DNA of 64,000 bases from Corallococcus sp. NCRR (lineage in GTDB: Bacteria > Myxococcota > Myxococcia > Myxococcales > Myxococcaceae). Below are positions 1 through 46,669 of this stretch, piece after piece; position 1 is the stretch's first letter, and each line of letters opens with the position of its first letter. Where the stretch lies: the NCBI RefSeq assembly GCF_026965535.1, contig NZ_CP114039.1:5146001-5210000 (forward strand), read 5' to 3'. A program made the translations under genes and the position numbers. The notes under the pieces were generated by a model. It made no database searches, was not told where the DNA came from, and worked only from the letters and a program-made list of their open reading frames with translations.

Positions 1-724
1 CCCGCGAGCGCCTTGAGCGCACGGGAGACGTTCCCAGGGATGCGAACGTCCACCGTGGCACCCCGGTGGGACTGCACGGGCGGACGCGGCCGGTCCGTGG
101 GCAGCTCCAACGCCGCGGGCGCCCCGGAGAGCTGCTGCTTCCAGTAGCGGATCTGCGCCTCCAGGGCCTCCCCCTGGAGCCAGTTCCGCTGCCACGCCGC
201 GAAGTCCGCGTACTGCACGGGCAGCGGCGTGAGGTCGGGCTCCTTGCCGTCATGGAACGCGGCGTACAGCGAGATGAGCTCCCGGACGAGCACGCCCATG
301 GACCAGCCGTCGGAGACGATGTGGTGCATCGTCACCAGCAGCAGGTGCTCATTCTCCTCCAGGCGCACCAGGGCACTGCGCAGCAGGGGACCCGTGGCGA
401 GGCGGAAGGGACGCCGGGCCTCCTCGTCGGCCAGCTTCCGAGCCGCCTTCTTCCGCTCATCCTCGGGCAGCGAAGAGAGGTCCATGAGCGGCAGCGTCCA
501 TGCCGCCGGAGCCTGGATCCGCTGCGTGGGCTGACCCTGATGCTCGTGGAAGGTGGTGCGCAGGGCCTCGTGACGGGCGACGAGTGCCTCGAAGGCACGG
601 CGCAGGGCTTCGACGTCCACTTGCCCCGAGAGCTGAAGTGCAACCGGGAGGTTGTAGGACGCGTCCTCCGGCTGGAGTTGATCCAGGAGCCACAGCCGCT
701 GCTGAGCGAAGGACAACGGCAGCG
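1..724 (-). other. NRPS-B module 7: partial C domain at window edge
   Basis: Residues about 6333-6573. Begins at PLSFAQQRLWLLDQLQP, has HHIVSDGWSMGVL near 299-330 and is still open at position 1 in the segment GATVDVRIPGNVSRALKALAG. It shows that at least a seventh extension step exists. The partner A domain and any release domain lie outside the window. Confidence 0.9.
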
Positions 725-3700: not shown

Positions 3701-6700
3701 GGCGATGGACGAGTGATTCGAAGGCACGGCGCAGGGACTCCGCGTCCAGGTGCCCGGAGAGCTGGAGCGCGGCCGGGAGGTTGTAGGACGCGTCCCCGGG
3801 GTGGAGTTGATCCAACAGCCACAGGCGCTGCTGCGCGAAGGACACAGGCCGCAGGCCGTCAGGCGAGAGACGGGTGAGCTTCATCGCCTGGGAGGTCGCG
3901 CTCCCTTGCAGCCGCCCGGCGAGCGCCTCCACCGTGGAGGACTCGAAGAGCGCGCGCAGGGGCAGCTCCACGCCGAACTCCGCGCGCACGCGCGACACCA
4001 CCTGCGTGGCCAGCAGCGAGTGCCCGCCCAGTTCGAAGAAGGAGTCCTTCACGCCCACCTGCGGCAGACGGAGGACCTCGGCCCAGATGGAGGCCAGCTT
4101 CGCTTCGGCTTCCGTGCGAGGCGCTTCGTAGGTGTTGCCAGACTGCGGCGCCTCCGGCTCTGGCAGGGCCTTGCGGTCCACCTTGCCGTTGGAGTTGAGC
4201 GGCAGCGCCTCAAGCACCACGAAGGTGGCAGGCACCATGTACTCGGGGAGTCCCTGACGCAGATGCGCCTTGAGGGCTTCCACCTCCAGCGAGGCACTTG
4301 CCTTGGGAGAGACGTAGGCGACGAGGCGTTTCTCGGCGGCCTCACCCTTCGCGACGACGACCGCGTCCTTGAGGCCCGGAGCGCGGCGGAGAGCGGCTTC
4401 GATTTCGCCCAGCTCGATGCGGAAGCCGCGCACCTTCACCTGGAAGTCGACGCGGCCGAGGTACTCCAGGCGCCCGTCGAGTCGGTACCGGACGCGGTCG
4501 CCCGTGCGGTACATGCGGCCACCGGGAGGACCGTAGGGCTCCGGCAGGAAGCGCTCTGCCGTGAGCTCCGGACGCAGCAGGTATCCACGCGCCTGGCCTT
4601 CGCCCGCGAGGTACAGCTCACCGGCGACACCGACAGGCACCGGCTGGAGTGAAGCGTCCAGCACGTAGGCACGCGTCGCGGGCAGGGGACGGCCAATGAG
4701 GGGCACTTCGTCACGGCCGACGAGAGAGGCCGTGGAGTAGGTGGTGTCTTCGGACGGGCCGTAGAGGTTGTAGAGCTTCTGCACCGTCGGGACGGCGTAG
4801 ACCTGCTTCGCCAACGTCTCCGGCAGGGCCTCACCGGCGAGGTTGATGACACGCACGGAGGGCGGCACCGCACCCAGGCGCAGCAGTTGCGCCATGGCGG
4901 AGGGCACCGTGTTGACGAGCGTGACGTGGGACGCCGTAGGCAGCTCGGCCAGGTGCAGGGCGTTCCGTGCCACCACCACCGCGCCACCGCTGCTCAACGG
5001 GGCGAAGAGTTCGAAGACGGAGAGGTCGAAGTTGAGGCTCGTCGCGGCGAGCGTTCCCTTCAGTTCCTCCGGGGAGAACGTCTCCAGAGCCCAGTGGAGG
5101 AAGGAGACAGCGTTGCCATGGGAGATGGCGACGCCCTTGGGGCGGCCGGTGCTGCCGGAGGTGTAGATGAGGTAGGCGAGGTGGCCGGGGTGGATGTCCA
5201 CCACGGGCGCCGTCGTCGGCTGCTTCGCCAGCTCCACGTCCGAGTCGAGACACACCGGCGTGGCGGTGGTCTCCGGTAGGGCCGAGAGCAGATGCGAATG
5301 CGCCACGAGGGCCGGGCCCTGAGCATCCTCCAGCAGCCAGCCCAGGCGCTCACGCGGGTAGCTGGGGTCCAGGGGCACGTAGGCGCCACCGGCCTTGAGG
5401 ATGCCGAGCGCTCCGATGATGAGGTCTTCAGTACGTTCAACGCAGAGACCGACACGGACTTCGGGGCCGACGCCCAGGCTTCGCAGCCGGTGGGCGAGCT
5501 GGTTGGCCTTCGTATCCAGCTCCCGGTACGTCATCTGCCGCTCCGGTGTAATGACGGCCAGCGCGTCCGGCGTGCGACGCACCTGGGCTTCCACCATCGC
5601 GGGGATGCTGGGCTCACGCGGCGCCTGCGATGCCGGGGGATTCCACTCGACGAGGAGTTGCTGCCGCTCCGTGTCGGTGAGCAGCGGCAGGTCGCCAAGC
5701 TTCATGTCCGGCTTCTTGGCAATGGCCTCCAGCAAGACGCCGAAGTGCCCAGCCATGCGCTGAATGGTCGCCGCGTCGAACAGGTCCGTCGCGTACTCCA
5801 ACGTGCCCGTCATTCCCGTGGGGGCCTCTCTCAGTCCCAGGGAGAGATCGAACTTCGCGAAGCGCGTTTCCAACGGCAGCGTCCGCATGGACAAGCCCGG
5901 CAGGCGCAGCTCTTCACCCGGCATGTTCTGCAGGACGAACATCGCCTGGAACAACGGATTGCGGCTCAGGTCGCGCGTGGGCTGCACAGCCTCCACGAGC
6001 TTCTCGAAGGGCAGGTGCTGGTGCTCGTACGCCGTGAGCGTCGTGCCCCTCACCTGGACCAGCAACTCACGGAACGTCGCTCGCGGATCCACCTGGGCGC
6101 GCAGGACCAGGGTGTTGACGAAGAAGCCGATGAGGCCCTCGGTCTCCGCCTGCGTGCGGCCCGCGATGGGCGAACCCACGCTGATGTCATCCTGCGCCGA
6201 GTAGCGCGACAGGAGCACCTGGAACGCCGCGAGGAACACCATGAAGGGCGTGGCGCCTTCCCTCTGGGCAAGGGCCTTGAGTGCCTCCACCAGGTGGGCC
6301 GGAATCCGCACGTCCACCGTGGCCCCCCGGTGCGACTGCACGGGCGGACGCGGCCGGTCCGTGGGCAGCTCCAGCGCCGCCGGTGCTCCAGCCAACCGCT
6401 GCTTCCAGTAGTCCAGCTGCGCCTCCAGGACCTCGCCCTGGAGCCAGTCGCGCTGCCACGTCGCGAAGTCCGCGTACTGCACCGGCAGCGGCGGGAGGGC
6501 CGGCGTGCTGCCCGTGCTCAAGGCTTCGTAGAAGGCCGCCATCTCGCGAACGAGGACGCCCATGGACCAGCCGTCGGAGACGACGTGATGCATGGTCACC
6601 AGCAGCAGGTGCTCCTCCTCTTCCAGGCGCACCAGCAGCCCGCGCAGCAGCGGTCCCGTCGCGAGCCGGAACGGACGGCGGGCCTCCTCGGCCACGATGC

Positions 6701-9700
6701 GATGGGCTTCTTCCTCGCGCTGCTCCCGGGGCAGCGCGCTCAGGTCGACGACGGGCAGTTCCCATGCCGCTGCCGCGTGGACTCGCTGCGACGGCGCCTC
6801 CTGGGACGCGGCGAGCGTGGTGCGCAGGGATTCGTGGCGGGCGATCAGCGCTTCGAAGGCGCCTCGCAGCGCGTCCGCGTCCACCCGGCCCGTCAGCCGC
6901 AGCGCCGTGGGGATGTTGTACGACGCATCACCGGGCTGGAGTTGATCCAGCAGCCAGAGGCGCTGCTGCGCGAAGGAGAGCGGAATGTCCCCTTCGCGGG
7001 CCGCGGGCCGCAGCGGCGGAGCACGAAGCGCGGAGGACGGGGCCTTCTCGAGCAGCGGCGCGAGGGCTTCGACCGTGGGCGCTCCGAATAGGGCCCGTAG
7101 CGGCAACTCCACGCCGAACGCGGCGCGCACGCGCGAGACGAGCTGGGTGGCCAGCAGGGAGTGCCCACCCAGCGCGAAGAAGTCGTCCTGGAGTCCCACG
7201 CGCTCCACGCGGAGGACTTCAGCGAAGAGGGTCGCGAGCTGGGTCTCGGTGGCGGTGCGCGGCGCGACGTAGGAGGCCGCGCGCGGTGCGTCTCCCGGTT
7301 CGGGCAGGGCCTTGCGGTCCACCTTGCCGTTGGCGTTGAGGGGCAGCGCGTCCAGCACCAGGATCGATGCGGGCACCATGTACTCTGGCAGCCGCTGCCG
7401 CAGGTGGACCCGCAGCGCCTCCATGTCCAACGCGTGCCCTTCGTGCGCGGTGAGGTAGCCGATGAGGCGCTTGTCCGCGTCCGCGCCCCGGGCCACGACG
7501 ACGGCCTCGTTGACGCCCGGGAAGGCGCGCAGGGCGGATTCGATTTCGCCCAGCTCGATGCGGAAGCCGCGCACCTTCACCTGGAAGTCGACGCGGCCCA
7601 GGAAGTCGAGCGTGCCGTCCTCCAGCCAGCGGGCCTTGTCACCCGTGCGGTAGAGACGCTCGCCCGGAGTGGTGGCGAAGGGGTGGGGGACGAAGCGCTC
7701 CGCGGTCAGGTCCGGGCGGTGCAGGTAGCCCCACGCGAGGCCCGGGCCACCGACGTACACCTCGCCCGCGACGCCCACGGGGACCGGGTGCAGGTGCGCG
7801 TCGAACACATAGGCCGTGGCGTTCGGGATGGGCCGGCCGATGGGGACCGGCCCGTCCACGCGCGTGTCGCGGTGCAACGGCAGCGTGGTGGAGAACGTCG
7901 TGTTCTCCGTCGGTCCGTAGGCGTGGAACAGCGTCGCGCCCTCGGCGAGGCGGGGGAGGTGGTCGCGCAGTCGCGACCAGGGCATCAGGTCTCCACCCGT
8001 GAGGACCTGGCGCACGTTCGCAAGGGCTTCGCCCTGGTGGAGGACCATCTGCTCGAACAGCGCGGTCGTGATGAACAGCGCCGTCACGCGGTGGCGACGC
8101 AGTTGATCCGCCAGTTCTTCCAGCGACAGGGCATGGGGCGGCGCGAGGACGAGCTTCCCGCCGTGCAGCAGCGCGCCCCAGAGCTCCAGGGTGGAGGCAT
8201 CGAAGGCGATGGGCGCGATCTGCAGCCACACCTCGTCGGGCCCGAAATGCATGAAGGTGCTGCCGAGCACCAGGCGGGTGATGCCGCGGTGGGGAACGCT
8301 GACGCCCTTGGGGCGGCCCGTGGAGCCCGAGGTGAACATCACGTAGGCCAGGGACTCGCCCTCCACGGAGACGTCGGGCGCGTGCGTGGGCAGCCCGGCC
8401 AGGGCGTCCTGCTGCGTGTCCAGCCAGACGCGGGTGCCGGAGGCCGGCAGCCTGGATGCGAAGGGCTGGTGCGTGACCACCACGTCCACGTCCGCGTCCT
8501 CCAGCAACATCGCGATGCGCTCCACGGGCGCATTGCGGTCCACGGGGACGAAGGCCGCGCCCGCCTTGAGGATGGCGAGGAGCGCCGTCACCATCTCGAA
8601 GGAGCGCTCGAGGGCCAGGCCGACGCGCGCGCCGGGAACAATGCCCAGGGCGCGCAGGTGATGGGCGAGCTGGTTGGCGCGGGCTTCGAGCCGGGCGTAC
8701 GTCAGCGTCGCCTCCCCCAGCACCAGGGCCACCGCGTCGGGCGTGCGCTGTGCCTGCTGGGAGAAGTGAACGTGGACCGGGACGTCCATGGGGCTGGCGA
8801 CGGTGGTGTCGTTCCAGTCCACGAGGATGCGCTGGCGCTCCTCGCGGGAGAGCAGCGGCAGCTCGGACAGGGCCCGTTCGGGCTGAGCGGCCACGGCCTC
8901 CAGCAGCGTGCGCAGATGGTGGATCATCCGCTCAACGGTGCTCCGCTCGAAGAGCGCGGTGCTGTACTCCAGCCAGCCCACGAAACCCTGGCCCGAATCC
9001 TGAAGCGTCAGGGTGAGGTCGAACTTGGCGGAGCGCGCGTTGGACGCCACCTGCTGGAAGGTGAGGCCGGGGACTCGCAGGTCCTCGGTGGGCGCGTTCT
9101 GCAGGGCGAACATCACCTGGAAGAGCGGGCTGCGGCTCGTGTCCCGGACGGGCTGGAGGACCTCCACCAGCTTCTCGAAGGGCACGTGCTGATGCTCGTA
9201 GGCCGCGAGCGTCGTGCCCCGCACCTGCGCGAGCAGCTCTCGGAAGGTGGCCTTCGGTTCGACCTGGGCGCGCAGGACGAGCGTGTTGACGAAGAAGCCG
9301 ATGAGGCCTTCGGTCTCTGCCTGCGTGCGGCCCGCGATGGGCGTGCCCACGCTGATGTCGTCCTGGCCCGCGTAGCGCGACAGGAGGAGCTGGAAGCCCG
9401 CGAGCAGCGCCATGAAGGGCGTGGCCCCTTCACGCCTGGCCAGCGCCTTGAGCGCCTGGGAGGTCTCGGGCGGAAGCTGGACGGAGAGGGCCGCGCCCGC
9501 GTGGGATTGAACGGACGGACGCGGATGATCCGTCAGCACCTCCAGCGCGGCGGGCGCTCCAGAGAGCTTCTGCTTCCAGTACCCCAGCTGCGCGTCGAGT
9601 GTTTCGCCCTGGAGCCACTGGCGCTGCCACGCCGCGAAGTCCGCGTACTGCAGCGGCAGGGGGCTGAGGGCCGGCGCGGTGCCCTGGGTGAAGGCCGCGT

Positions 9701-12700
9701 AGAACGTCACGAGCTCGCGCACGAGGACGCCCATGGACCAGCCGTCGGAGACGATGTGATGCATCGTCACCAGCAGCAGGTGCTCCTCCTCACCCAGTCG
9801 CACGAGGGCCGTGCGCAGGAGCGGTCCGCGCTCCAGGTGGAACGGCTGCCGGGCATCCTCCGCGACCCGGCGCTGGGCCTCGGACTCGCGCTGTGCTTCC
9901 GGCAGGCTGGACACGTCGATGAGCGGCAGGGCCCAGGCTCCGGGCGCGTGGATCCGCTGGGTGGCCTGGCCCTGATTTTCCCGGAAGGTGGTGCGCAGGA
10001 CTTCGTGGCGGGCGACCAGCGCTTCGAAGGCGCGGCGCAGGGACTCCACGTCCACGTGGCCCGTCAGCCGCAGCGCCGTGGGGATGTTGTACGACGCGTC
10101 ACCCGGGGTGAGCTGAGCCAGGAACCAGAGCCGCTGCTGCGCGAACGAGAGCGGCAGGTCGCCCTCATTCGAGGAAGGCCGCAGTGGCGGCAGGCGGTGC
10201 TCGGAGCGCTGAGCGCCGACGAGCTTCGTCGCGAGCGCCTCCACGGTGGGCGCTTCGAAGAACACCCGCAGCGGCATTTCCAGGCTGAAGGTCGCGCGCA
10301 CGCGCGAGACGAGTTGCGTGGCCAGCAGGGAGTGGCCGCCGAGGGCGAAGAAGTCGTCCCGGATGCCCACGCGCTCCACGCGGAGGACTTCGGCGAAGAG
10401 GGCTGCGAGCTGCTCCTCGGTGTCGGTCCGTGGCGCGATGAAGTCGGACGAGCGCGCGAGGTTTCCCAGCTCGGGCAGGGCCTTGCGGTCGACCTTGCCG
10501 TTGGAGTTGAGGGGCAGGGCGTCGAGGACGAGGACCGCTGAGGGGACCATGTACTCGGGCAGCTGCTGCCGGAGGTGGGCCTTGAGTGCCTCGGAGTCGA
10601 GTGAGTGGCCCTCGCGAGCAGTGACGTAAGTGACGAGGCGCTTGTCGGCGGCTTCACCCCTGGCGACGACGACCGCGTCCTTGAGGCCCGGAGCGCGGCG
10701 GAGAGCGGCTTCGATTTCGCCCAGCTCGATGCGGAAGCCGCGCACCTTCACCTGGAAGTCGATGCGGCCGAGGTACTCCAGGCGCCCGTCGAGGCGGTAC
10801 CGGACGCGGTCGCCCGTGCGGTACATGCGGCCACCGGGAGGACCGTAGGGCTCCGGCAGGAAGCGCTCCGCCGTGAGCTCCGGACGCAGCAGGTATCCAC
10901 GCGCCTGGCCTTCACCCGCGAGGTACAGTTCGCCTGCCACGCCCACAGGCACCGGTTGCAGCGAAGCGTCCAGCACGTAGGCGCGCGTTGCGGGCAGGGG
11001 CCTGCCGATGAGAGGCACCTCGTCACGGCCGACGAGGGAGGCCGTGGAGTAGGTGGTGTCCTCGGACGGGCCGTAGAGGTTGAAGAGCTTCTCAACCGTC
11101 GGCACCGCATAGACCTGCTTCGCGAGTGTCTCCGGCAGGGCTTCGCCCGCGAGGTTGATGACACGCACGGAGGGCGGCACCGCGCCCAGGCGCAGAAGCT
11201 GCGCCATGGCGGAGGGCACCGTGTTGACCAGGGTGACGTGAGACGCCGTAGGCAGCTCCGCCAGGTGCAAGGCGTTCCGTGCCATCACCACCGCGCCACC
11301 GCTGCTCAACGGGGCGAAGAGCTCGAAGACGGAGAGGTCGAAGTTGAGGCTCGTCGCGGCGAGCGTTCCCTTCAACTCCTCTGGGGCGAAGGTGGAGAGA
11401 GCCCAGTGGAGGAAGGAGACAGCGTTGCCGTGGGCGATGGCGACGCCCTTGGGACGGCCCGTGGAGCCCGAGGTGTAGATGAGGTAGGCGAGATGACCGG
11501 GGTGGATGTCCACCACGGGCGCCGTCGTCGGCTGCTTGGCCAGCTCCACGTCCGAGTCGAGGCACACCGGCGTGGCGGTGGTTTCGGGCAGCGCCGAAAG
11601 CAGATGCGAGTGGGCGACAAGGGCCGGGCCCTGCGCGTCCTCCAGCAGCCAACCCAGGCGCTCACGCGGGTAGCTGGGATCCAGCGGCACGTAGGCGCCA
11701 CCGGCCTTGAGGATGCCGAGCGCTCCGATGATGAGGTCTTCAGTACGTTCAACGCAGAGACCGACACGGACTTCGGGGCCGACGCCCAGGCCTCGCAGCC
11801 GGTGGGCGAGCTGGTTGGCCTTCGCGTCCAGCTCCCGGTACGTCAACTGCCGCTCGGGCGTGATGATGGCCAGCGCGTCCGGCGTGCGACGCACCTGGGC
11901 TTCCACCATCGCGGGGATGCTGGGCTCGTGTTGCACCTGCGAGGCAGGCGGATGCCACTCGACGAGGAGTTGCTGACGCTCGGCATCCGTGAGCAGCGGC
12001 AGGCCTCCGAGCCGTGACTCGGGCTTCGTCGCGATGGTTTTCAGCAGGACTCCGAAGTGCCCGGCCATGCGCTGAATGGTCGCCGCGTCGAACAGGTCCG
12101 TCGCGTACTCCAGCGTGCCGACCAGTCCCTCCTGGACCTCCTGCAAGGAGAGCGTGAGATCGAACTTCGCGAAGTGTGTCTCCAGGGGCAGGGGCCGCAG
12201 GGAGAGGCCCGGGAGCTGGAGCGCCTCGGTGGGCGTGTTCTGCAGGACGAACATCACCTGGAAGAGCGGACTGCGGCTCGTGTCCCTGACGGGCTGGAGG
12301 ACCTCCACCAGCTTCTCGAACGGCACGTGCTGGTGCTCGTAGGCCGTGAGCGTCGTGCCTCGTAGCTGGGCGAGCAGCTCGCGGAAGGTCGCCTTCGGTT
12401 CGACGTGGGCCCGCAGGACGAGCGTGTTGACGAAGAAGCCGATGAGGCCCTCGGTCTCCGCCTGCGTGCGGCCCGCGATGGGCGTTCCCACGCTGACGTC
12501 GTCCTGCGCGGCGTAGCGCGAGAGGAGCACCTGGAAGGCGGCCAGCAGCACCATGAACGGCGTGGCGCCCTCGCGTCCCGCCAGTGCCTTGAGCCGTTGG
12601 GCGATCTCCGAAGGGATGCGCACGTCCACCGTGGCGCCCCGGTGGGACTGCACGGGCGGGCGCGGGCGGTCCGTGGGCAGCTCCAGCGCGACCGGTGCAC

Positions 12701-15700
12701 CCACGAGCTGCTGCTTCCAGTACCCGAGGTGCGTCTCCAACGTCTCGCCCTGGAGCCACTGGCGCTGCCAGGTCGAGAAGTCCGCGTACTGCATCGGCAG
12801 TGGCGCGAGCGAGGGGCCGCGGCCCGCATGGAAGGCTTCGTAGAAGGCCACCAGCTCACGGACGAGGACGCCCATGGACCAGCCGTCGGAGACGATGTGA
12901 TGCATCGTCACCAGCAGCAGGTGCTCGTCCGCGCCCAGGCGCACGAGGGCGGTGCGAAGGAGCGGCCCGTCCTCCAGTTGGAATGGATGGCGGGCGTCCT
13001 CGGTGACGAGGCGTCGCGCTTCGGCTTCGCGCTGCGCCGCCGGCAGGGCGGACACGTCATGCAGCGGCAGGGTCCACGCGACTGGAGGGTGGATGGATTG
13101 GAGGGCCTGACCCTCGTGCTCGCGGAAGGTGGTGCGCAGGGCTTCGTGACGGGCGACGAGTGCCTCGAAGGCCCGGCGCAGGGACTCCACATCCACGTGG
13201 CCCTTCAAGCTCAGCGCGCTGAAGATGTTGTAGGACGCATCTCCCGGGGTGAGCTGATCCAGGAACCAGAGTCGCTGCTGCGCGAAGGAGAGGGGTGCGG
13301 TGGTGGCGCGCACCCTGGGAATGCTCGGAGGCGGCTGCACCGCGGAGGCGTGGGCGGCGTCGATGCGCAGGGCAAGGCCCGCCACGGTGGGGGCCTCGAA
13401 CAGCGCGCGCACGGGCAGCTCGCGCCGGAAGGTGGCGCGGACCCGGGACATGAGCTGGGTGGCCAACAGCGAGTGGCCACCGAGAGAGAAGAAGTCGTCG
13501 TGGATGCCCACGCGCTCCACGCGCAGGACCTGGGCGAAGACGTCCGCGAGCTTCTCCTCGGTGGGATTGCGCGGGCCGACGAAGTCCGCGAGCGGCGAGG
13601 CGTCCGGGACGGGAAGGGCCTTGCGGTCCACCTTCCCGTTGGAAGTCAGGGGCAGTGCCGCCAGGGGGACGAAGGCGGAGGGCACCATGTACTCGGGCAG
13701 CCGCTCCTTGATGAACGTGCGCACCGCCGAGGTGTCCCACTGCTGGCCCTGGGCGGGCACGACGTAGGCGACGAGCCGCTTGTCACCGGGGACGTCCTCA
13801 CGGGCGAGGACGACGGCCTCGTGCACGGAGGCGTGAGCGAGGAGGGAGGCTTCGATTTCGCCCAACTCGATGCGGAAGCCGCGCACCTTCACCTGGAAGT
13901 CGAGCCGCTGGAGGTAGTCCAACTGGCCATCCGCTCGCCAGCGCACGACGTCACCGGTGCGGTAGAGGCGGGCACCCGGCGTGGAGGAGAAGGGGTGCGG
14001 GATGAAGCGCTCGGCGCTCAGCGCCGGCTGGCCCAGGTATCCCCAGGCGAGGCCTTCACTGGCGAGGAAGAGCTCACCGGGGACGCCCACGGGCACCGGC
14101 TGGAGTCGAGCGTCGAGGACGTAGGTGCGGGTGTTGGCGATGGGGCGGCCGATGGGAGGCCGCGTACCGTCGTCGTGCACGACAGGGGTGAAGGTGGCGA
14201 CGACGGTGCTCTCGGTGGGGCCGTAGTGGTTGAAGAGGGTGGCGGGGACTGAGGGCGGCGGACCGTGGTGGAGGGCGTCTCCGCCCGTCAGCAGGGCACG
14301 CAGGGCCATGGGGCGGGGCCACTCTTCACGCAGCACGGCCTCGGCCAGAGGCGTGGGCATGAAGCAGGTGGTGATGGCTTCGCGGGCCAGCCACTGAAGC
14401 AGAAGGGAGGGCTCGGCACGCACGGCGTCGGGAGGGACGACGAGGCTGGCGCCGGAGGCCAGCGAGGGCCACACCTCCCAGGTGGAAGCGTCGAAGGCGA
14501 CGCCCGCGGTGAGGGCGGTGGAGTCCTGGGGCGTCAGCGAGTAGGTGCGCTGGTGCCAGGAGACGAGGTTCATCAACGCGCGGTGGTGGACGGCGACGCC
14601 CTTGGGACGGCCGGTGCTGCCGGAGGTGTAGATGACGTAGGCCAGGTCCTCCGGGCCCACGGACGTCACCGGCAGCGGCTGCCGCGTTGCACCCGTCTCC
14701 ACCTCAAGCGAGAGGACGCGCGAAGAGAGGGAGGGCAGCGAGTCGCGCAGGTGCTGCTGGGTAAGGAGGACCGAAGCGCCGCAGTCCTCCAGCATGAAGG
14801 CCAGTCGCTCCGGCGGAACACCGGGCGCAATGGGGACGTAGGCGGCGCCCACCTTGAGGGTGGCCAGGAGGCCCGCCACCAGCTCCGGAGAACGCTCCGC
14901 GAGGACGGCGACGCGGCTGCCCCGGGCGACACCGGCCGCGTGCAACTGGACGGCTAGGCCATGCGCCCAGGCATCGAGTCCTGCGTAGGTGACGCTTCGC
15001 TCCCCCATGCGCACGGCGACAGCGTCCGGAGCGCGACGGGCGTGCTCCGCGACGACATGGTGGATGCAGGTGTCGCGGGGGAAGGCGACGTCCGTCTCAT
15101 TCCACTCGACGAGGAGCTGCTTGCGCTCCTCCGCCGTCATCACCTCCAGCGAGGACACACGCGCATCCGGCTGGGCAGCGAGAGAGGAGAGGAGGACGCC
15201 GAAGTGGCCCATGAGGCGCTGGGCGGTGGAGGCGTCGAAGAGGTCGGAGCTGTACTCGAGGAAGCCGGTGAGGCCCTGGGGCACCTCGAAGAGGGTGAGG
15301 GCCAAATCAAAGCGGGAGGAGTTGCCCTCCAGAGGAATGGGCTGGAAGGCCAGGCCCGGCACGCGCAGCGCTTCGGCGGGTGCGTTCTGCAGGACGAGCA
15401 TGACTTGAAAGAGAGGGCTGCGGCTCAAGTCGCGCGAGGGCTGGAGGACCTCCACCAGCTTCTCGAAGGGGACGTGCTGGTGCTCGTAGGCGGCGAGGGT
15501 GGTGGCCTTCACCTGGGAGAGCAACTGGCGGAAGGAGTCCTCCGGGCGCACGTGGGCGCGCAGGACGAGCGTATTGACGAAGAAGCCGATGAGGCTTTCG
15601 GCTTCGGCGTGGGTGCGGCCGGCGATGGGAGAGCCGACGGAGATGTCGTCCTGGCCGGAGTAGCGCGAAAGCAGCAACTGGAAGGCGGAGAGCAGCAGCA

Positions 15701-18700
15701 TGAAGGGCGTGGCGCCTTCACGCTGGGCGAGGCTTCGCAGGGAGTCCGTCAGCTGCGAGGGGAAGTGCACGGGCACCGTGGCGCCGCGGCGGGACTGCAC
15801 GGCCGGACGCGGACGGTCGGTGGGCAGCTCCAGCGCGGCGGGGGCACCGGCCAACTGGCGCTTCCAGTAGCCGAGCTGGGACTCCAGCGCTTCGCCCTGG
15901 AGCCACTGCCGCTGCCACACGGCGAAGTCCGCGTACTGCACCGGCAGCGGCGGCAGCGAAGGAGCCCGGCCGCCACTGAAGGACTCATAGAGGCTCGCCA
16001 GTTCGCGGATGAGGACGCCCATGGACCAACCGTCGGAGACGATGTGGTGCATCGTCACGAGGAGGACGTGCGTCTCCTCGGCCAGCCGCAGGAGCGAGGT
16101 GCGCAGCAGTGGCCCACGGACGAGGTTGAAGGGCTGCCGGGCCTCTCGGGTGGCTCGCCGCAGCGTCTCGGCGTCACGCGCGGACTCGTCCACTCCCGAC
16201 AGATCCTCCATGGGAAGGACCCACTCGGCCGGAGGATGGATGCGCTGGAAGGGCTGGCCCTCCTCTTCGAAGAAGGTGGTGCGCAGGGCTTCATGGCGCG
16301 CCACGAGCGCCTCGAACGCGCGGCGTAGGGCTTCCACGTCCAGTCGGCCCAGGAGGCGTAGTGTGACGGGGAGGTTGTAGGAGGCGTCGTCCGGCGCCAG
16401 TTGGTCCAGGAACCAGAGACGCTGCTGGGCGAAGGAGAGCGGCTGCGGGCCTTCGGTGCGCGTGCGCGTCAGGGAGGGCAGGCGCGTGCCGGTCGCGGCG
16501 CGCTGGAGGCGTTCAGCCAGTGCGGCGATGGTGGGGGCTTCGAAGAGGGCGCGGAGCGGCAGCTCCATGTCGAGCGCCACGCGCACGCGGGCCACCAGTT
16601 GCGTGGCGAGCAGGGAGTGTCCACCCAGCTCAAAGAAGTTGTCGGTGCGGCCCACGGTGGGGACGCGAAGCACTTCGCTCCAGAGCGCCGCGAGCTTCTC
16701 CTCCAGCGGAGTGGCTGGGGCCTCGTAGGCGTGTGACGCGCGGAGTGAGCCCGCATCCGGAGCGGGAAGGGCCTTGCGGTCCACCTTGCCGTTGGAGGTG
16801 AGCGGCAGCGCCTCCAAGGAGACGAAGGCGGCGGGCACCATGTACTCGGGCAGGTGCTGCTTCAGGTGGGCGCGCAGGGCCGTGACGTCGAGGGCTTCGC
16901 CGACGACGTAGGCGACGAGGCGCTTGTCGCCCGGAGCATCCTCGCGGGCGAGCACGACGGCGTCCTTCACGGCAGGGGCGGCGCGCAGGGTGTTCTCAAC
17001 TTCGCCCAGCTCGATGCGGAAGCCGCGGACCTTTACCTGGGCATCGATGCGGCCAACGAAGTCCAACTGGCCATCCGCGCGCCAGCGCACCACGTCGCCC
17101 GTGCGGTAGAGACGGGCGCCCGGAGTGGTGGAGAACGCGTCAGGGATGAATCGCTCTGCGGTGAGGCCCGGCCGTCCCGCGTACCCGCGCGCGACGCCCA
17201 CGCCACCGATGTGCAACTCACCGCGCACACCCACGGGCACCGGCTGCCCGTGCGGGTCCAGCACGTAGACGCATGCGTTCGCCAGCGGCTTGCCGATGGA
17301 AGGCACTTCTCCATCCGCCACCACCTCACCAAAGGTGGCGATGACGGTGGCTTCGGTGGGGCCGTAGGTATTGAGCAGGCGCCGTCCCGGAGCCCAGCGC
17401 GCGACGACGTCCGCGGGCAGGGCTTCGCCGCCGGAGATGACGGTGCGTACCTTGGGCAGGCCCTCGGAGGACGTGGCCGCCAGGGCCGCGGGGGTGAGGC
17501 TGACGACGCTCAGCTCCTGCTCACGCAGCAGCACGGGCAGAGGCGCGCCCGGCATCAGCTTCTCCAACGGGGCCAGCACCAGCGTGGCGCCGTTGCAGAG
17601 GGTGGTGAAAATCTCCTCCACGGAGAGGTCGAAGCTGAGGCTCGCGAACTGAAGCACCCGGCTGCCGGGGCCGATGCCGTACGCCACCGCTTCGTGGGTG
17701 ACGAGGTTGGCGACGCTGCGGTGCTCCACCGCCGTGCCCTTGGGCGTCCCGGTGCTGCCCGAGGTGTAGAGCAGGTACGCCATGTTCGCGGGCGTCACGC
17801 CTGTCACTGGCGCATCCGTTGGCTCCTGCGCCAGGGACTGGCGCTCCGTATCCAGGCAGAGGACGCGGGCATGCAGTGCTTCCGGGAAGCGGTCCACCAG
17901 GGGCTGCTGGGTGACGAGCACCTGGGCCTCGCTGTCCTCCAGCATGAAGGCCAGGCGCTCGCGCGGCAGCAGCGGATCCACGGGCACCCAGGCGCCACCG
18001 GCTTTCAGGATGCCGAGCAGGCCGATGACGACGTCGAGGGAGCGCTCAACACTGAGGGCGACGCGGACCTCCGGGCCCACGCCACGGCGGCGCAGGGCAT
18101 GGGCAAGCTGATTGGCGCGCGCGTCCAGTTGCGCGTACGTCAGCTGGGCCCCCTCGAAGACCGCGGCCACCGCGTCCGGAGCGCGGCGCACCTGCGCCTC
18201 GAAGAGCGAGTGCATGCACGCCTCGGGGAACGGCGCCCGCGTGGCGTTCCACTCCACCAGCATCTGCTGGCGCTCATCCCCCGCGAGCAACTGCAGCGAC
18301 GACACGCGCTGATCCGGCTTCGCGACGGCTTCCTGCAGGAGCACGCGCAGGTGCTCGGCCATGCGAGCGGCGGTGGAGGCGGTGAAGATGTCGGTGGTGT
18401 ATTCGAGATAGCCCTTGAGGCCGGCATCCGTCTCCAGCACCTGGAGGGTGAGGTCGAACTTGGCGGAGAAGGTATCGAGCTCCAGGGCTTCCAGCTTGAC
18501 GCCCTCGACGGTGGCGGCGCCGCGGAAGGAGGCCTGGTAGGTGAGCATCACCTGGAAGAAGGGAGTGCGCCCCGGGATGCGCTCGGGCTTCAACTCCTCC
18601 ACGAGTCGCTCGATGGGAAGCTCCTGGTGCTCCTGGGCACCGAGCACCGTCTCCCGCACCTGACGCAGCAGGGTGCGGAATGAAGCCGTGCCAGTCACGC

Positions 18701-19721
18701 GGGTGCGAAGCACCTGGGCGTTGACGAAGAGGCCGATGAGGCCCTCCACCTCGCCGCGTGTGCGGCCCGCCATGGGAGAGCCGACGGTGACGTCCTCCTG
18801 GCCGGAGTAGCGGGCCATCAGCATCTGCCAGCCCGTCAGCAGCGCCATGTAGAGGGAGGCGCCTTCCTGCTGCGCCAGGGCCTTGAGTGCGTCCGTCAAC
18901 TCGCGCGGCAGCAGCACGTCATGCCGGGCGCCTCGGCCATCTCGCGTCGTGGGGCGGGGGAAGTCGGTGGGCAGCTCCAGCGCGGAAGGCACTTCAGCCA
19001 ACTGACGCTTCCAGTAGTCGAGCTGCTTCTCCAGCCGGGGGCCCTGCATCCACTCGCGCTGCCAGACGCCGAAGTCCGCGTACTGGATGCCCAGCGGCGG
19101 CAGGGGCGCTGCCTGGCCTCGCGCGAAGGCCCCGTAGAGGAGCGCCACCTCGCGCACCAGCAGCGTCATGGACCAGCCGTCGGAGATGATGTGGTGCACC
19201 ACCACGACGAGCAGATGCTCTGCCGGTGCCGACGTCAGTAGCAGCGCGCGCAGCAGCGGGCCCTTCGCGAGGTCGAAGGGCCGCGCGGCCTCCTCACGCG
19301 CCAGACGCCACACGTCCTCCGGCGGCGAGCCCGTGAGCGCCTTGCGCTCCAGGGTGAGCACGGGCTCAGGCGACACCACCTGCACGGGGCCGGACGCGTC
19401 CTCGCGGAAGGTGGTGCGCAGCACTTCATGACGGCGCACCACTTCGCGCAGCGCGCGCTCCAGCACGGCCACGTCGAGTGCACCCTCCAGGCGCACCGCC
19501 ATGGGCACGTTGAAGAGGGACGTGCCGGGCTGGAGCTGATCAATGAACCAGAGGCGCTGCTGGGCGAAGGACAGGGGCAAGGGCCGCGAGCGGTCCTGCA
19601 CCGGGATGAGGCTTTGGGCGGAGTTGCCCGCGCTGGCCTTCTGCGCGGCCACCTTCTTGAGCAACTCGGCGCGCTTCTCCGGTGACAGGTTGGCGATCCG
19701 CTTCGACAGCTCGTGGCTCAT
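1..19721 (-). CDS. NRPS-B: giant nonribosomal peptide synthetase, 3' end outside window
   Basis: Multimodular NRPS, at least 6573 codons in the window and still open at position 1. The order read from the minus strand is (C-A-PCP)x6 followed by most of a seventh C domain. The ATG at 19721 is preceded by GGAG with an 8-nt spacer, and the N-terminus MSHELSKRIANLSPEKRAEL matches the start of the upstream NRPS-A. Each C domain has an HHxxSDGWS catalytic motif, each A domain has TSGSTGxPKG and NGKVDRKALP, and each PCP has LGGHSLL with the phosphopantetheine serine. No E, MT, Cy or TE domain is seen in the visible part. It would activate amino acids as adenylates and condense them on tethered carriers in the cytoplasm. 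It lies 416 bp downstream of NRPS-A, whose TE suggests a separate product. Function class is certain; product and full length are not. Confidence 0.97.
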   Translation of the reverse strand, partial: MSHELSKRIANLSPEKRAELLKKVAAQKASAGNSAQSLIPVQDRSRPLPLSFAQQRLWFIDQLQPGTSLFNVPMAVRLEGALDVAVLERALREVVRRHEVLRTTFREDASGPVQVVSPEPVLTLERKALTGSPPEDVWRLAREEAARPFDLAKGPLLRALLLTSAPAEHLLVVVVHHIISDGWSMTLLVREVALLYGAFARGQAAPLPPLGIQYADFGVWQREWMQGPRLEKQLDYWKRQLAEVPSALELPTDFPRPTTRDGRGARHDVLLPRELTDALKALAQQEGASLYMALLTGWQMLMARYSGQEDVTVGSPMAGRTRGEVEGLIGLFVNAQVLRTRVTGTASFRTLLRQVRETVLGAQEHQELPIERLVEELKPERIPGRTPFFQVMLTYQASFRGAATVEGVKLEALELDTFSAKFDLTLQVLETDAGLKGYLEYTTDIFTASTAARMAEHLRVLLQEAVAKPDQRVSSLQLLAGDERQQMLVEWNATRAPFPEACMHSLFEAQVRRAPDAVAAVFEGAQLTYAQLDARANQLAHALRRRGVGPEVRVALSVERSLDVVIGLLGILKAGGAWVPVDPLLPRERLAFMLEDSEAQVLVTQQPLVDRFPEALHARVLCLDTERQSLAQEPTDAPVTGVTPANMAYLLYTSGSTGTPKGTAVEHRSVANLVTHEAVAYGIGPGSRVLQFASLSFDLSVEEIFTTLCNGATLVLAPLEKLMPGAPLPVLLREQELSVVSLTPAALAATSSEGLPKVRTVISGGEALPADVVARWAPGRRLLNTYGPTEATVIATFGEVVADGEVPSIGKPLANACVYVLDPHGQPVPVGVRGELHIGGVGVARGYAGRPGLTAERFIPDAFSTTPGARLYRTGDVVRWRADGQLDFVGRIDAQVKVRGFRIELGEVENTLRAAPAVKDAVVLAREDAPGDKRLVAYVVGEALDVTALRAHLKQHLPEYMVPAAFVSLEALPLTSNGKVDRKALPAPDAGSLRASHAYEAPATPLEEKLAALWSEVLRVPTVGRTDNFFELGGHSLLATQLVARVRVALDMELPLRALFEAPTIAALAERLQRAATGTRLPSLTRTRTEGPQPLSFAQQRLWFLDQLAPDDASYNLPVTLRLLGRLDVEALRRAFEALVARHEALRTTFFEEEGQPFQRIHPPAEWVLPMEDLSGVDESARDAETLRRATREARQPFNLVRGPLLRTSLLRLAEETHVLLVTMHHIVSDGWSMGVLIRELASLYESFSGGRAPSLPPLPVQYADFAVWQRQWLQGEALESQLGYWKRQLAGAPAALELPTDRPRPAVQSRRGATVPVHFPSQLTDSLRSLAQREGATPFMLLLSAFQLLLSRYSGQDDISVGSPIAGRTHAEAESLIGFFVNTLVLRAHVRPEDSFRQLLSQVKATTLAAYEHQHVPFEKLVEVLQPSRDLSRSPLFQVMLVLQNAPAEALRVPGLAFQPIPLEGNSSRFDLALTLFEVPQGLTGFLEYSSDLFDASTAQRLMGHFGVLLSSLAAQPDARVSSLEVMTAEERKQLLVEWNETDVAFPRDTCIHHVVAEHARRAPDAVAVRMGERSVTYAGLDAWAHGLAVQLHAAGVARGSRVAVLAERSPELVAGLLATLKVGAAYVPIAPGVPPERLAFMLEDCGASVLLTQQHLRDSLPSLSSRVLSLEVETGATRQPLPVTSVGPEDLAYVIYTSGSTGRPKGVAVHHRALMNLVSWHQRTYSLTPQDSTALTAGVAFDASTWEVWPSLASGASLVVPPDAVRAEPSLLLQWLAREAITTCFMPTPLAEAVLREEWPRPMALRALLTGGDALHHGPPPSVPATLFNHYGPTESTVVATFTPVVHDDGTRPPIGRPIANTRTYVLDARLQPVPVGVPGELFLASEGLAWGYLGQPALSAERFIPHPFSSTPGARLYRTGDVVRWRADGQLDYLQRLDFQVKVRGFRIELGEIEASLLAHASVHEAVVLAREDVPGDKRLVAYVVPAQGQQWDTSAVRTFIKERLPEYMVPSAFVPLAALPLTSNGKVDRKALPVPDASPLADFVGPRNPTEEKLADVFAQVLRVERVGIHDDFFSLGGHSLLATQLMSRVRATFRRELPVRALFEAPTVAGLALRIDAAHASAVQPPPSIPRVRATTAPLSFAQQRLWFLDQLTPGDASYNIFSALSLKGHVDVESLRRAFEALVARHEALRTTFREHEGQALQSIHPPVAWTLPLHDVSALPAAQREAEARRLVTEDARHPFQLEDGPLLRTALVRLGADEHLLLVTMHHIVSDGWSMGVLVRELVAFYEAFHAGRGPSLAPLPMQYADFSTWQRQWLQGETLETHLGYWKQQLVGAPVALELPTDRPRPPVQSHRGATVDVRIPSEIAQRLKALAGREGATPFMVLLAAFQVLLSRYAAQDDVSVGTPIAGRTQAETEGLIGFFVNTLVLRAHVEPKATFRELLAQLRGTTLTAYEHQHVPFEKLVEVLQPVRDTSRSPLFQVMFVLQNTPTEALQLPGLSLRPLPLETHFAKFDLTLSLQEVQEGLVGTLEYATDLFDAATIQRMAGHFGVLLKTIATKPESRLGGLPLLTDAERQQLLVEWHPPASQVQHEPSIPAMVEAQVRRTPDALAIITPERQLTYRELDAKANQLAHRLRGLGVGPEVRVGLCVERTEDLIIGALGILKAGGAYVPLDPSYPRERLGWLLEDAQGPALVAHSHLLSALPETTATPVCLDSDVELAKQPTTAPVVDIHPGHLAYLIYTSGSTGRPKGVAIAHGNAVSFLHWALSTFAPEELKGTLAATSLNFDLSVFELFAPLSSGGAVVMARNALHLAELPTASHVTLVNTVPSAMAQLLRLGAVPPSVRVINLAGEALPETLAKQVYAVPTVEKLFNLYGPSEDTTYSTASLVGRDEVPLIGRPLPATRAYVLDASLQPVPVGVAGELYLAGEGQARGYLLRPELTAERFLPEPYGPPGGRMYRTGDRVRYRLDGRLEYLGRIDFQVKVRGFRIELGEIEAALRRAPGLKDAVVVARGEAADKRLVTYVTAREGHSLDSEALKAHLRQQLPEYMVPSAVLVLDALPLNSNGKVDRKALPELGNLARSSDFIAPRTDTEEQLAALFAEVLRVERVGIRDDFFALGGHSLLATQLVSRVRATFSLEMPLRVFFEAPTVEALATKLVGAQRSEHRLPPLRPSSNEGDLPLSFAQQRLWFLAQLTPGDASYNIPTALRLTGHVDVESLRRAFEALVARHEVLRTTFRENQGQATQRIHAPGAWALPLIDVSSLPEAQRESEAQRRVAEDARQPFHLERGPLLRTALVRLGEEEHLLLVTMHHIVSDGWSMGVLVRELVTFYAAFTQGTAPALSPLPLQYADFAAWQRQWLQGETLDAQLGYWKQKLSGAPAALEVLTDHPRPSVQSHAGAALSVQLPPETSQALKALARREGATPFMALLAGFQLLLSRYAGQDDISVGTPIAGRTQAETEGLIGFFVNTLVLRAQVEPKATFRELLAQVRGTTLAAYEHQHVPFEKLVEVLQPVRDTSRSPLFQVMFALQNAPTEDLRVPGLTFQQVASNARSAKFDLTLTLQDSGQGFVGWLEYSTALFERSTVERMIHHLRTLLEAVAAQPERALSELPLLSREERQRILVDWNDTTVASPMDVPVHVHFSQQAQRTPDAVALVLGEATLTYARLEARANQLAHHLRALGIVPGARVGLALERSFEMVTALLAILKAGAAFVPVDRNAPVERIAMLLEDADVDVVVTHQPFASRLPASGTRVWLDTQQDALAGLPTHAPDVSVEGESLAYVMFTSGSTGRPKGVSVPHRGITRLVLGSTFMHFGPDEVWLQIAPIAFDASTLELWGALLHGGKLVLAPPHALSLEELADQLRRHRVTALFITTALFEQMVLHQGEALANVRQVLTGGDLMPWSRLRDHLPRLAEGATLFHAYGPTENTTFSTTLPLHRDTRVDGPVPIGRPIPNATAYVFDAHLHPVPVGVAGEVYVGGPGLAWGYLHRPDLTAERFVPHPFATTPGERLYRTGDKARWLEDGTLDFLGRVDFQVKVRGFRIELGEIESALRAFPGVNEAVVVARGADADKRLIGYLTAHEGHALDMEALRVHLRQRLPEYMVPASILVLDALPLNANGKVDRKALPEPGDAPRAASYVAPRTATETQLATLFAEVLRVERVGLQDDFFALGGHSLLATQLVSRVRAAFGVELPLRALFGAPTVEALAPLLEKAPSSALRAPPLRPAAREGDIPLSFAQQRLWLLDQLQPGDASYNIPTALRLTGRVDADALRGAFEALIARHESLRTTLAASQEAPSQRVHAAAAWELPVVDLSALPREQREEEAHRIVAEEARRPFRLATGPLLRGLLVRLEEEEHLLLVTMHHVVSDGWSMGVLVREMAAFYEALSTGSTPALPPLPVQYADFATWQRDWLQGEVLEAQLDYWKQRLAGAPAALELPTDRPRPPVQSHRGATVDVRIPAHLVEALKALAQREGATPFMVFLAAFQVLLSRYSAQDDISVGSPIAGRTQAETEGLIGFFVNTLVLRAQVDPRATFRELLVQVRGTTLTAYEHQHLPFEKLVEAVQPTRDLSRNPLFQAMFVLQNMPGEELRLPGLSMRTLPLETRFAKFDLSLGLREAPTGMTGTLEYATDLFDAATIQRMAGHFGVLLEAIAKKPDMKLGDLPLLTDTERQQLLVEWNPPASQAPREPSIPAMVEAQVRRTPDALAVITPERQMTYRELDTKANQLAHRLRSLGVGPEVRVGLCVERTEDLIIGALGILKAGGAYVPLDPSYPRERLGWLLEDAQGPALVAHSHLLSALPETTATPVCLDSDVELAKQPTTAPVVDIHPGHLAYLIYTSGSTGRPKGVAISHGNAVSFLHWALETFSPEELKGTLAATSLNFDLSVFELFAPLSSGGAVVVARNALHLAELPTASHVTLVNTVPSAMAQLLRLGAVPPSVRVINLAGEALPETLAKQVYAVPTVQKLYNLYGPSEDTTYSTASLVGRDEVPLIGRPLPATRAYVLDASLQPVPVGVAGELYLAGEGQARGYLLRPELTAERFLPEPYGPPGGRMYRTGDRVRYRLDGRLEYLGRVDFQVKVRGFRIELGEIEAALRRAPGLKDAVVVAKGEAAEKRLVAYVSPKASASLEVEALKAHLRQGLPEYMVPATFVVLEALPLNSNGKVDRKALPEPEAPQSGNTYEAPRTEAEAKLASIWAEVLRLPQVGVKDSFFELGGHSLLATQVVSRVRAEFGVELPLRALFESSTVEALAGRLQGSATSQAMKLTRLSPDGLRPVSFAQQRLWLLDQLHPGDASYNLPAALQLSGHLDAESLRRAFESLVHRHEALRTTFHEHQGQPTQRVQAPAAWTLPLVDLSSLPEDERRNEARRLANEEARRPFDLATGPLLRSTLVRMGGDSHLLLLTMHHIVSDGWSMGVLVREMVAFYEAFSTGSTPTLAPLPVQYADFATLQRNWLQGEALEAQIRYWKQQLSGAPAALELPTDRPRPPVPSHRGAMVEVRIPEPVASALKALAQREGATAFMTLLAAFQVLLSRYSAQDDVSVGSPIAGRTQAETEGLIGFFVNTLVLRAQVNPRATFRELLAQVRGTTFAAYEHQHLPFEKLVEAVQPARDMSRSPLFQAMFVLQNTPTEPLRLPGLSFQALPLEAHFAKFDLSLALQEVQAGLVGTLEYATDLFDAATIQRMAGHFGVLLEAIAKKPDTRLGDLPLITDEERRQLLVEWNPEAALAIREPSIPAMVEAQVRLTPDAMAIITPERQLTYRELDVKANQLAHRLRGLGVGPEVRVGLCVERTEDLVIGALGILKAGGAYVPLDPSYPRERLSWLLEDAQGPALVAHLHLLSALPETSAMPVCLDSDVELAKQPTTAPKVDIHPGHLAYLIYTSGSTGRPKGVAISHGNAVSFLHWALSTFAPEELKGTLAATSLNFDLSVFELFAPLSSGGAVVVAKNALHLAELPTAAHVTLVNTVPSAMAQLLRLGAVPPSVRVINLAGEALPETLAKQVYAVPTVQKLYNLYGPSEDTTYSTASLVGRNEVPLIGRPLPATRAYVLDAALQPVPLGVAGELYLAGEGQARGYLMRPELTAERFVPEPYGPPGGRMYRTGDRVRYRPDGRLEYLGRVDFQVKVRGFRIELGEIEAALRRAPGLKDAVVVARGEAADKRLVAYVTPRASLEVEALKAHLRQGLPEYMVPTAFVVLDALPLNANGKVDRKALPEPEAPQSGNTYEAPRTEAEAKLASIWAEVLRLPQVGVKDSFFELGGHSLLATQVVSRVRAELGVELPLRALFESPTVEALAARLHGSASSHAQKLTRVSHDGPLPLSFAQQRLWLLDQLQPEDASYNLPVALQLSGQVDVEALRRAFEALVARHEALRTTFHEHQGQPTQRIQAPAAWTLPLMDLSSLPEDERKKAARKLADEEARRPFRLATGPLLRSALVRLEENEHLLLVTMHHIVSDGWSMGVLVRELISLYAAFHDGKEPDLTPLPVQYADFAAWQRNWLQGEALEAQIRYWKQQLSGAPAALELPTDRPRPPVQSHRGATVDVRIPGNVSRALKALA
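725..3849 (-). other. NRPS-B module 6: C - A (DLFNNALTYK, Ala or Cys) - PCP
   Basis: Residues about 5291-6333. C motif near 3427-3460, PCP serine near 890. The A-domain pocket again reads D-L-F-N-N-A-L-T-Y-K, so it is predicted to load the same monomer as module 5. The PCP segment SFFELGGHSLLATQVVSRVR is intact. Confidence 0.85.
3850..6989 (-). other. NRPS-B module 5: C - A (DLFNNALTYK, Ala or Cys) - PCP
   Basis: Residues about 4244-5290. C motif (HHVVSDGWS) near 6563-6592, PCP serine near 4018. The A domain has the same pocket as modules 3 and 6 and reads KLYNLYGPSEDTTYST. The sequence is nearly interchangeable with the other four copies of this A domain, so expression and evolution of these units probably involve gene conversion. 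Confidence 0.85.
6990..10159 (-). other. NRPS-B module 4: C - A (DALFLGATFK, aliphatic) - PCP
   Basis: Residues about 3187-4244. C motif near 9735-9765, PCP serine near 7155. The pocket reads D-A-L-F-L-G-A-T-F-K from IAFDASTLELW, VTALFITTA, VLTGGD and FHAYGPTENTTFST. It is related to the Val/Ile-type codes and to module 8 of NRPS-A (DALWLGGTFK), so a branched aliphatic residue is likely; the exact residue is open. The A domain has FHAYGPTE where the other modules have FN(x)YGP. Confidence 0.82.
10160..13299 (-). other. NRPS-B module 3: C - A (DLFNNALTYK, Ala or Cys) - PCP
   Basis: Residues about 2141-3187. C motif near 12876-12906, PCP serine near 10330. The A domain has the segments LNFDLSVFELF, VTLVNTVPS, VINLAGEA and NLYGPSEDTTYST, giving code D-L-F-N-N-A-L-T-Y-K. 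As I recall the tables, DLYNNALTYK is a cysteine code and DLFNNAL(T/S)Y occurs in alanine-activating cyanobacterial domains. No cyclisation domain accompanies it, which fits alanine slightly better. This is one of five near-identical A domains in the window. Confidence 0.85.
13300..16446 (-). other. NRPS-B module 2: C - A (Leu) - PCP
   Basis: Residues about 1092-2140. C motif near 16021-16050, PCP serine near 13470. The A-domain pocket reads D-A-W-F-L-G-H-V-V-K, one residue away from the widely used leucine code DAWFLGNVVK, so leucine is predicted. The A-domain core is nearly identical to module 3 of NRPS-A. Its C-terminal subdomain just after the A8 region differs and is three codons longer (PAQGQQWDTSAVRTFIKERL versus GEALDVSVLRAHLKQHL), a sign of a local swap. 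Confidence 0.85.
13800..18303 (-). repeat. Block shared between NRPS-A and NRPS-B, NRPS-B copy
   Basis: Partner of 37232-41735. It covers A1-PCP1-C2 and most of A2 of NRPS-B. Just past its left end the offset becomes 23,441 bp, a three-codon difference in the A2 C-terminal subdomain. Confidence 0.85.
16447..19721 (-). other. NRPS-B module 1: starter-type C - A (DLESIGTVIK) - PCP
   Basis: Residues about 1-1092. The C domain (HHIISDGWS near 19170-19200) follows a ~45-residue leader and closely resembles C1 of NRPS-A, so it is probably the chain-initiating (possibly acyl-accepting) C domain. The A domain is nearly identical to that of module 2, not module 1, of NRPS-A. My pocket reading (D235 to K517 in GrsA numbering) is D-L-E-S-I-G-T-V-I-K. 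The glutamate at position 239 suggests a basic side chain, and it resembles a lysine code I recall (DAESIGSVCK), but this is a weak assignment. The PCP serine lies near 16615. Confidence 0.85.
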
Positions 19722-19757
19722 CTCGTGTACTCCGCACTGGGGGCCGCCACTGCGTAC

Positions 19758-19783
19758 GAGCACCACCAGGGACAGTGGCGCTC
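19758..19783 (-). promoter_or_regulatory. Leader hairpin before NRPS-B
   Basis: GAGC-a-CCAC pairs with GTGG-c-GCTC around an 8-nt loop, 37-62 nt upstream of the ATG. It sits in the same place as the longer hairpin before NRPS-A, with different bases in the stem. This supports a conserved RNA structure in the 5' leader. Confidence 0.45.
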
Positions 19784-19831
19784 ACCGAAACTCGGGCGTG
19801 TTGCTGGTGCCGGAATGACTCCCTGCGCCGC

Positions 19832-19863
19832 TCTTCCCGAAGAAGCGCGAGGGTGGGTCAAAT
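19832..19863 (-). promoter_or_regulatory. Dyad plus GGGTGGGTCAAAT block before NRPS-B
   Basis: Dyad TCTTC-cc-GAAGA (19832-19843) followed by GGGTGGGTCAAAT (19851-19863). On the coding strand the latter reads ATTTGACCCACCC and contains a TTGACC hexamer. The same arrangement occurs before NRPS-A with a different dyad sequence. Possible operator or promoter element; no good -10 hexamer follows TTGACC. Confidence 0.4.
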
Positions 19864-20022
19864 TCATATGGGTGAGATTATTCCGCCTACGCCGACCCTG
19901 TCATGAGGGCGGACAAATACCCACTCGAATGAATACAGGTATTTACTGGATTGTGTTGGTTCCTTGGAGTCCGGGAGGGAAGGACGTGAGATGTCCTCCA
20001 GGGTGAGACCTGCTCCCAGCAT

Positions 20023-20137: not shown

Positions 20138-46306
<26,169 letters not shown>

Positions 46307-46334
46307 CTCATGTACTCCGCGCTCGGGGACGCCA

Positions 46335-46368
46335 TCGCGAGCGCCACTCGGGGCAGTGGCGTTCGCGA
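46335..46368 (-). promoter_or_regulatory. Strong leader hairpin before NRPS-A
   Basis: A 14-bp stem (46335-46348 with 46355-46368, one G-T wobble) closes a 6-nt loop, 29-62 nt upstream of the NRPS-A ATG. The core arms are CGCCACT and AGTGGCG. A weaker version with compensating bases is at the same place before NRPS-B. It leaves the GGAG ribosome site free, so it may act as an mRNA stabiliser or regulator rather than by direct occlusion. Confidence 0.55.
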
Positions 46369-46414
46369 AAAGTCAGGCCTGCTGATGATTCTGGATTGCC
46401 CCCCTGCGCTGCTC

Positions 46415-46443
46415 TCTCGCGAGAAGCAGAGGGTGGGTCAAAT
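46415..46443 (-). promoter_or_regulatory. Dyad plus GGGTGGGTCAAAT block before NRPS-A
   Basis: Perfect palindrome TCTCGCGAGA (46415-46424) followed by GGGTGGGTCAAAT (46431-46443), which reads ATTTGACCCACCC on the coding strand. It is matched at the same distance upstream of NRPS-B. Candidate operator for a dimeric regulator, or part of the promoter. Confidence 0.4.
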
Positions 46444-46669
46444 CCACACTGGCCACAGTATTCCGTGGGCAGCCGAGCTGTCATGGGGGCGCTCACCCGG
46501 AAGTCCGAGTGAATTCGCGTATTTATGGGAAGAGTCGGGATCCCCGAACAGGCCACCGGAAGGACTCACGGTGTCGCTCAGAGGGGAACCGGCTCGCGGG
46601 GTCGTCCCCCCGCATGGAGGGGGAGCAGGCCAGAGGCTGGCCTGCCCGCCACCCGTCATCGACGGTGTT

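Follow-up and report, generated by a model that had tools for sequence, protein, structure and literature searches.

Short leader ORFs that are translationally coupled to the gene behind them are a known system. Hairpins in leaders have also been described in two settings. Stem-loops of the E. coli ompA type, and those of recA in Acinetobacter baumannii and vacA in Helicobacter pylori, have been named as mRNA-protecting (PMC7509114), and in Bacillus velezensis the dfn and mln systems, the setting of LoaP, have a small leader hairpin ahead of very long biosynthetic operons (PMC12691694). We analyzed a 64,000-nucleotide stretch of Corallococcus sp. NCRR (the window) in which two giant NRPS genes, NRPS-A and NRPS-B, are each preceded by a hairpin that we call P2. 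Like the ompA-type stabilizers, P2 forms ahead of the ribosome site, in what is here a predicted 5' UTR; as in dfn and mln, a small leader hairpin precedes very long biosynthetic genes; and as in coupled leader ORFs, a candidate short frame overlaps the main start at ATGA. Stabilization by ompA-type hairpins has been proven by experiment, whereas for P2 it is a proposal from sequence, and the classic stabilizing hairpins lie at the 5' end of the transcript, whereas P2 lies about 80 nt inside the predicted one. Structured 5'-UTR hairpins are well known as a kind, and P2 of the NRPS leaders is a new, lineage-restricted instance. No Rfam family matches the leader at gathering score, and we found no description in the open-licence literature of a post-transcriptional control element for myxobacterial NRPS genes.

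Table 1. Features of the two NRPS genes and their leaders (window coordinates).
Feature	Position	Strand	Remarks
NRPS-A	20138..46306	(-)	8722 aa; condensation domain first, thioesterase last; ATG at 46306
NRPS-B	1..19721	(-)	5' part within the window, remainder outside; thioesterase last; ATG at 19721
Sigma-70-like promoter, NRPS-A (predicted)	46457..46484	(-)	ATGACA-N16-AATACT; start expected near 46450
Sigma-70-like promoter, NRPS-B (predicted)	19877..19904	(-)	ATGACA-N16-AATAAT; start expected near 19870
P1 hairpin, NRPS-A leader	46406..46429	(-)	Alignment A6 and pair counts; weaker evidence
P1 hairpin, NRPS-B leader	19825..19848	(-)	Alignment A6 and pair counts; weaker evidence
P2 hairpin, NRPS-A 5' UTR	46335..46368	(-)	mRNA strand: 6 + 7 bp flanking an A.C mismatch; loop GCCCCG
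P2 hairpin, NRPS-B 5' UTR	19755..19786 (core 19758-19783)	(-)	Homologous to the A hairpin
Candidate 10-codon upstream ORF, NRPS-A	46303..46335	(-)	MASPSAEYMR*; TGA overlaps the NRPS-A ATG; first base is the last P2 base
Candidate 10-codon upstream ORF, NRPS-B	19718..19750	(-)	GTG start; TGA overlaps the NRPS-B ATG
Shine-Dalgarno GCGGAG, NRPS-A	46315..46320	(-)	GGAG invariant in the leader alignment
Shine-Dalgarno GCGGAG, NRPS-B	19730..19735	(-)	GGAG invariant in the leader alignment

The first-pass annotation had described a 14-bp stem ahead of NRPS-A. The inverted repeat, its 6-nt loop and its distance from the ATG (29-62 nt) are as described, but the unbroken 14-bp stem exists on the plus strand only, where it runs through a G-U; the mRNA strand has A.C at that place. 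The homologous repeat reported ahead of NRPS-B is also present, with a stem that is broken on the plus strand and continuous over 10 bp, including a G.U, on the mRNA strand. The P2 repeat folds on the opposite strand too. As RNA, the A hairpin folds at -22.9 kcal/mol (z -6.1) and the B hairpin at -16.4 kcal/mol (z -4.4), and the whole folded leader stretch is not clearly more stable than its shuffled versions (z of -1.5 in A and 0.1 in B). A single hairpin of this kind is by itself only mildly surprising, because shuffling the A intergenic region 400 times produced a near-14-bp stem 13 times and because, in a sample of 125 genes from this genome, all with a Shine-Dalgarno-supported start, 8.8% show a hairpin at least as stable as -18 kcal/mol at the same place. 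Of the NRPS leaders, 30 of 36 do.

An independent promoter scan found one sigma-70-like site ahead of each gene where 0.0-0.1 were expected. With a spacing of 15-16 nt (ATGACA-N15/16-AATAAT), the strict pattern occurs in 46 of 51 leaders, and the other five are near variants. The start predicted from this sequence gives a 5' UTR of 141-153 nt (about 145 nt) with P2 about 80-115 nt inside it, so that P2, lying below a conserved promoter, should be transcribed. Many NRPS leaders also have a conserved block like TAAATACCTGNATTCATTCG about 40-60 nt upstream of the -35 box (near 46525-46500 for A and 19945-19920 for B), which may be an activator site. Strong inverted repeats lie at about 20078-20113, after the NRPS-A stop, and at 46610-46650, after the stop of the upstream mechanosensitive-channel gene; transcripts may end at these repeats, which would fit separate transcription.

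To determine how widely the leader occurs, we used DNA search and a leader model, R1. By DNA search, 14 of 16 Corallococcus genomes carry the leader, in most cases ahead of three NRPS genes each, and two genomes in the genus of Citreicoccus inhibens have it at lower identity. R1 matched Corallococcus leaders over their full length (E 1e-16 to 1e-37) and the two Citreicoccus genomes, which had been left out of the model, at E of about 5e-8. In the window it scored 120.3 bits for the NRPS-A leader (46335-46453) and 120.4 bits for the NRPS-B leader (19754-19873), both of which were among the sequences used to build it. All leaders that carry the hairpin precede NRPS genes (36 Corallococcus leaders, plus Citreicoccus), and the proteins behind them share the N-terminus MSxELSKRIANLSPEKRAELLKK. 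The conserved position noted earlier holds throughout: P2 ends 27-33 nt from the ATG in all 36 distinct Corallococcus leaders and 34 nt from it in Citreicoccus, where a hairpin of different sequence, UCGCGGGGCC...GGCC(G/A)CCGCGA, occupies the equivalent place. The folding z score was below -2 in 32 of 38 hairpins, and P2 is weak in several leaders (L009, L023, L038). As judged from these matches, P2 is confined to Corallococcus and Citreicoccus, where it accompanies giant NRPS genes that are paralogues. The weak R1 matches that we inspected beyond these two (L134, L135, L137-L140) have no promoter, Shine-Dalgarno site or NRPS start, and we judged them to be chance.

The third leader copy of this genome lies ahead of a third NRPS gene just beyond the window (L040, L150). 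The three giant NRPS genes form a tandem array (window 1-46306 and G000:C1:5130000-5146100, L150), and every one has a promoter and leader of its own. NRPS-A and NRPS-B look like complete, separate assembly lines that arose by duplication, since in both a condensation domain comes first and a thioesterase last. A second type of NRPS leader in the same genus (T2; L042-L053, including L046 and L049; L116) is alike in its promoter, its GAGTGCGGAGT/Shine-Dalgarno context and its protein N-terminus, and has hairpins of its own that are different and longer. We did not count T2 (L042-L053) as a member: its promoter and Shine-Dalgarno context are alike, but its R1 match is not significant. Most copies of this second type have a palindrome, TGAAACA...TGTTTCA, upstream of the promoter, which is probably a regulator site.

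The first-pass annotation had argued for a selected RNA structure on the grounds that the A and B stems differ in bases on both arms. Compared in register, 6 of 13 pairs differ between the two leaders and none of the changes is compensating. Four differences are one-sided, from Watson-Crick to wobble (G-C to G.U twice, C-G to U.G and U-A to U.G); one mismatch in A is paired in B (A.C to G-C); and one pair is altered on both sides and broken (C-G to G.A). Moreover, the two leaders are paralogues, 74% identical over about 165 nt, and are not independent. As written, the argument for covariation between A and B fails.

Homologous leaders provide the comparison that these two do not. Because the 3' arm was misaligned at a 4-nt indel in a MAFFT alignment (A5), we used instead a subset alignment (A6) and P2 arms anchored on the conserved base of the stem, which allowed 13 pairs to be compared, gap-free except for a single-base deletion in five leaders. 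Across 32 leaders, standard pairs filled 369 of 411 cells, and both sides had changed in 20 cells against 8.5 expected from shuffles, a value reached in 1 of 5000. In A6 (23 sequences, P1 and P2), 91.2% of cells were paired and covariation was 0.216, compared with 0.157 +/- 0.010 after shuffling (0 of 500) and at most 0.114 for slid partners. Since the leaders are related, we also used a tree-based null, in which the tree was built from leaders and coding starts with P2 removed and column changes were placed randomly on its branches. For 36 leaders, 416 paired cells were observed against a null mean of 375 (reached in 2 of 2000 draws), and the observed covariation and number of double changes were reached in 17 and 38 of 2000 draws, respectively. 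The clearest signal came from P2 pair 2, which is G-C in 20 leaders, A-U in 7, G.U in 5 and never A.C. Among all possible consecutive-column helices in the leader, the P2 helices ranked top; this helix-level ranking is the informative one, as paralogue groups confound the ranking of single columns.

Strand preference was assessed from changes away from Watson-Crick parents. On the sense strand, such changes led to G.U 29 times and to A.C 11.5 times on average, an excess that favors RNA read in the direction of the gene over a DNA palindrome. The case for P1, which lies some 40 nt upstream of P2, is weaker: both sides have changed in two of its pairs, but its region mean z is only -1.2. These results show that, in 36 homologous leaders, pairing and compensating change in P2 exceed expectation and that pairing is kept through compensating changes, as in a structured cis-acting leader RNA. 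The earlier view of P2 as a selected RNA structure is thus supported by covariation among homologues and by the conserved upstream promoter, and not by the comparison of A with B. We put the probability that P2 is a selected hairpin of sense-strand RNA, at a conserved position in the NRPS 5' UTR and below a conserved promoter, at roughly 85%.

Two alternatives would do away with a selected RNA hairpin altogether. The leaders are paralogues and orthologues at about 74% identity or more, which makes the effective sample small, and a duplicated GC-rich leader could have carried a chance inverted repeat along by common descent only; however, the tree-based null was reached in only 0.1-2% of draws and the Citreicoccus hairpin stands at the same place despite its other sequence, and we regard this explanation as improbable. 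That the repeat is instead a DNA operator for a dimeric regulator would fit a GC-rich inverted repeat near the promoter of paralogous genes, one that also folds on the other strand. Yet the predicted start is 80-115 nt upstream of the repeat, the half-sites drift while pairing is kept, and the preference for G.U over A.C on the sense strand is not predicted for a DNA palindrome, which together leave an operator very improbable.

If P2 is a selected RNA hairpin, as we favor, it probably tunes translation or stability of a very long mRNA, and the earlier suggestion that it controls or protects the NRPS transcripts is a possible one. Our tentative proposal, to which we give somewhat less than even odds, is that P2 may serve as a 5'-UTR insulator or stabilizer positioned shortly before the ribosome site. 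Self-paired 27-34 nt ahead of the ATG, just beyond the ribosome footprint, P2 would prevent the Shine-Dalgarno site from being folded into the GC-rich leader and could impede decay entering at the 5' end, with the outcome that each 23-26 kb mRNA would be well translated from its own start. In folding predictions, the mean unpaired probability of the Shine-Dalgarno site was 0.42 in natural leaders; it fell to 0.34 when P2 was shuffled and to 0.38 when P2 was deleted, a small predicted effect in the direction that fits an insulator.

Other roles for the RNA can be weighed against this proposal, chief among them the gating of a short frame and the binding of a factor. P2 might gate a short upstream ORF, its opening and closing setting the number of ribosomes that enter this frame and then reinitiate at the NRPS gene. 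The 3' arm of P2 is immediately followed, in 30 of 36 Corallococcus leaders, by an NTG at -29 that starts the frame (M/V)ASPSAEY(T/M)R with its ATGA overlap. The frame begins 0-4 nt after P2, and no site changes faster than the first base of this NTG (10 changes), while the TG is nearly unchanged. However, changes inside the frame lack third-position bias (6/18/13), giving no sign of peptide selection; the ATGA overlap comes as a free by-product of an AGC second codon; the frame has no good Shine-Dalgarno; insertions or deletions destroy it in L010-L012, L025 and L039; and a start codon for it seems to be missing from the Citreicoccus leaders and from the second NRPS leader type. Unlike the coupled leader ORFs described elsewhere, then, this putative frame shows no sign of peptide selection and is absent from 6 of 36 leaders, and gating by P2 seems unlikely. 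A fuller version, in which promoter, two hairpins and coupled 10-codon ORF would form a duplicated, lineage-specific module and opening or closing of P2 would set translation of the NRPS array, is decidedly unlikely. About as unlikely as gating of the short frame is that P2 is a binding site for a protein or small RNA that jointly controls the array: the same leader stands ahead of all three array genes and the P2 loop is C-rich in most members, but the loop sequence varies and differs in Citreicoccus, no candidate factor was found, and no Rfam family matches. The known setting of LoaP, long biosynthetic operons with leader hairpins (PMC12691694), raises the idea that P2 recruits a NusG-like antiterminator of the LoaP or RfaH type, which would keep RNA polymerase processive through the full 23-26 kb. 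A single NusG-domain protein was found in the genome, the housekeeping one encoded between secE and rplK, and no LoaP above cut-off, which makes a dedicated antiterminator unlikely; unlike dfn and mln, the leader also has no UNCG tetraloop, and a consensus scan found no intrinsic terminator in it. Recruitment of such a factor is therefore the most improbable of these roles. We also rejected an intrinsic attenuator or terminator, as a GC hairpin followed by a U run was not found in the leader; the A sequence after P2 is TGGCGTCCCC.

Myxobacterial NRPS genes are major sources of natural products. A defined RNA element ahead of genes of 23-26 kb would offer a handle by which their expression could be raised or lowered.
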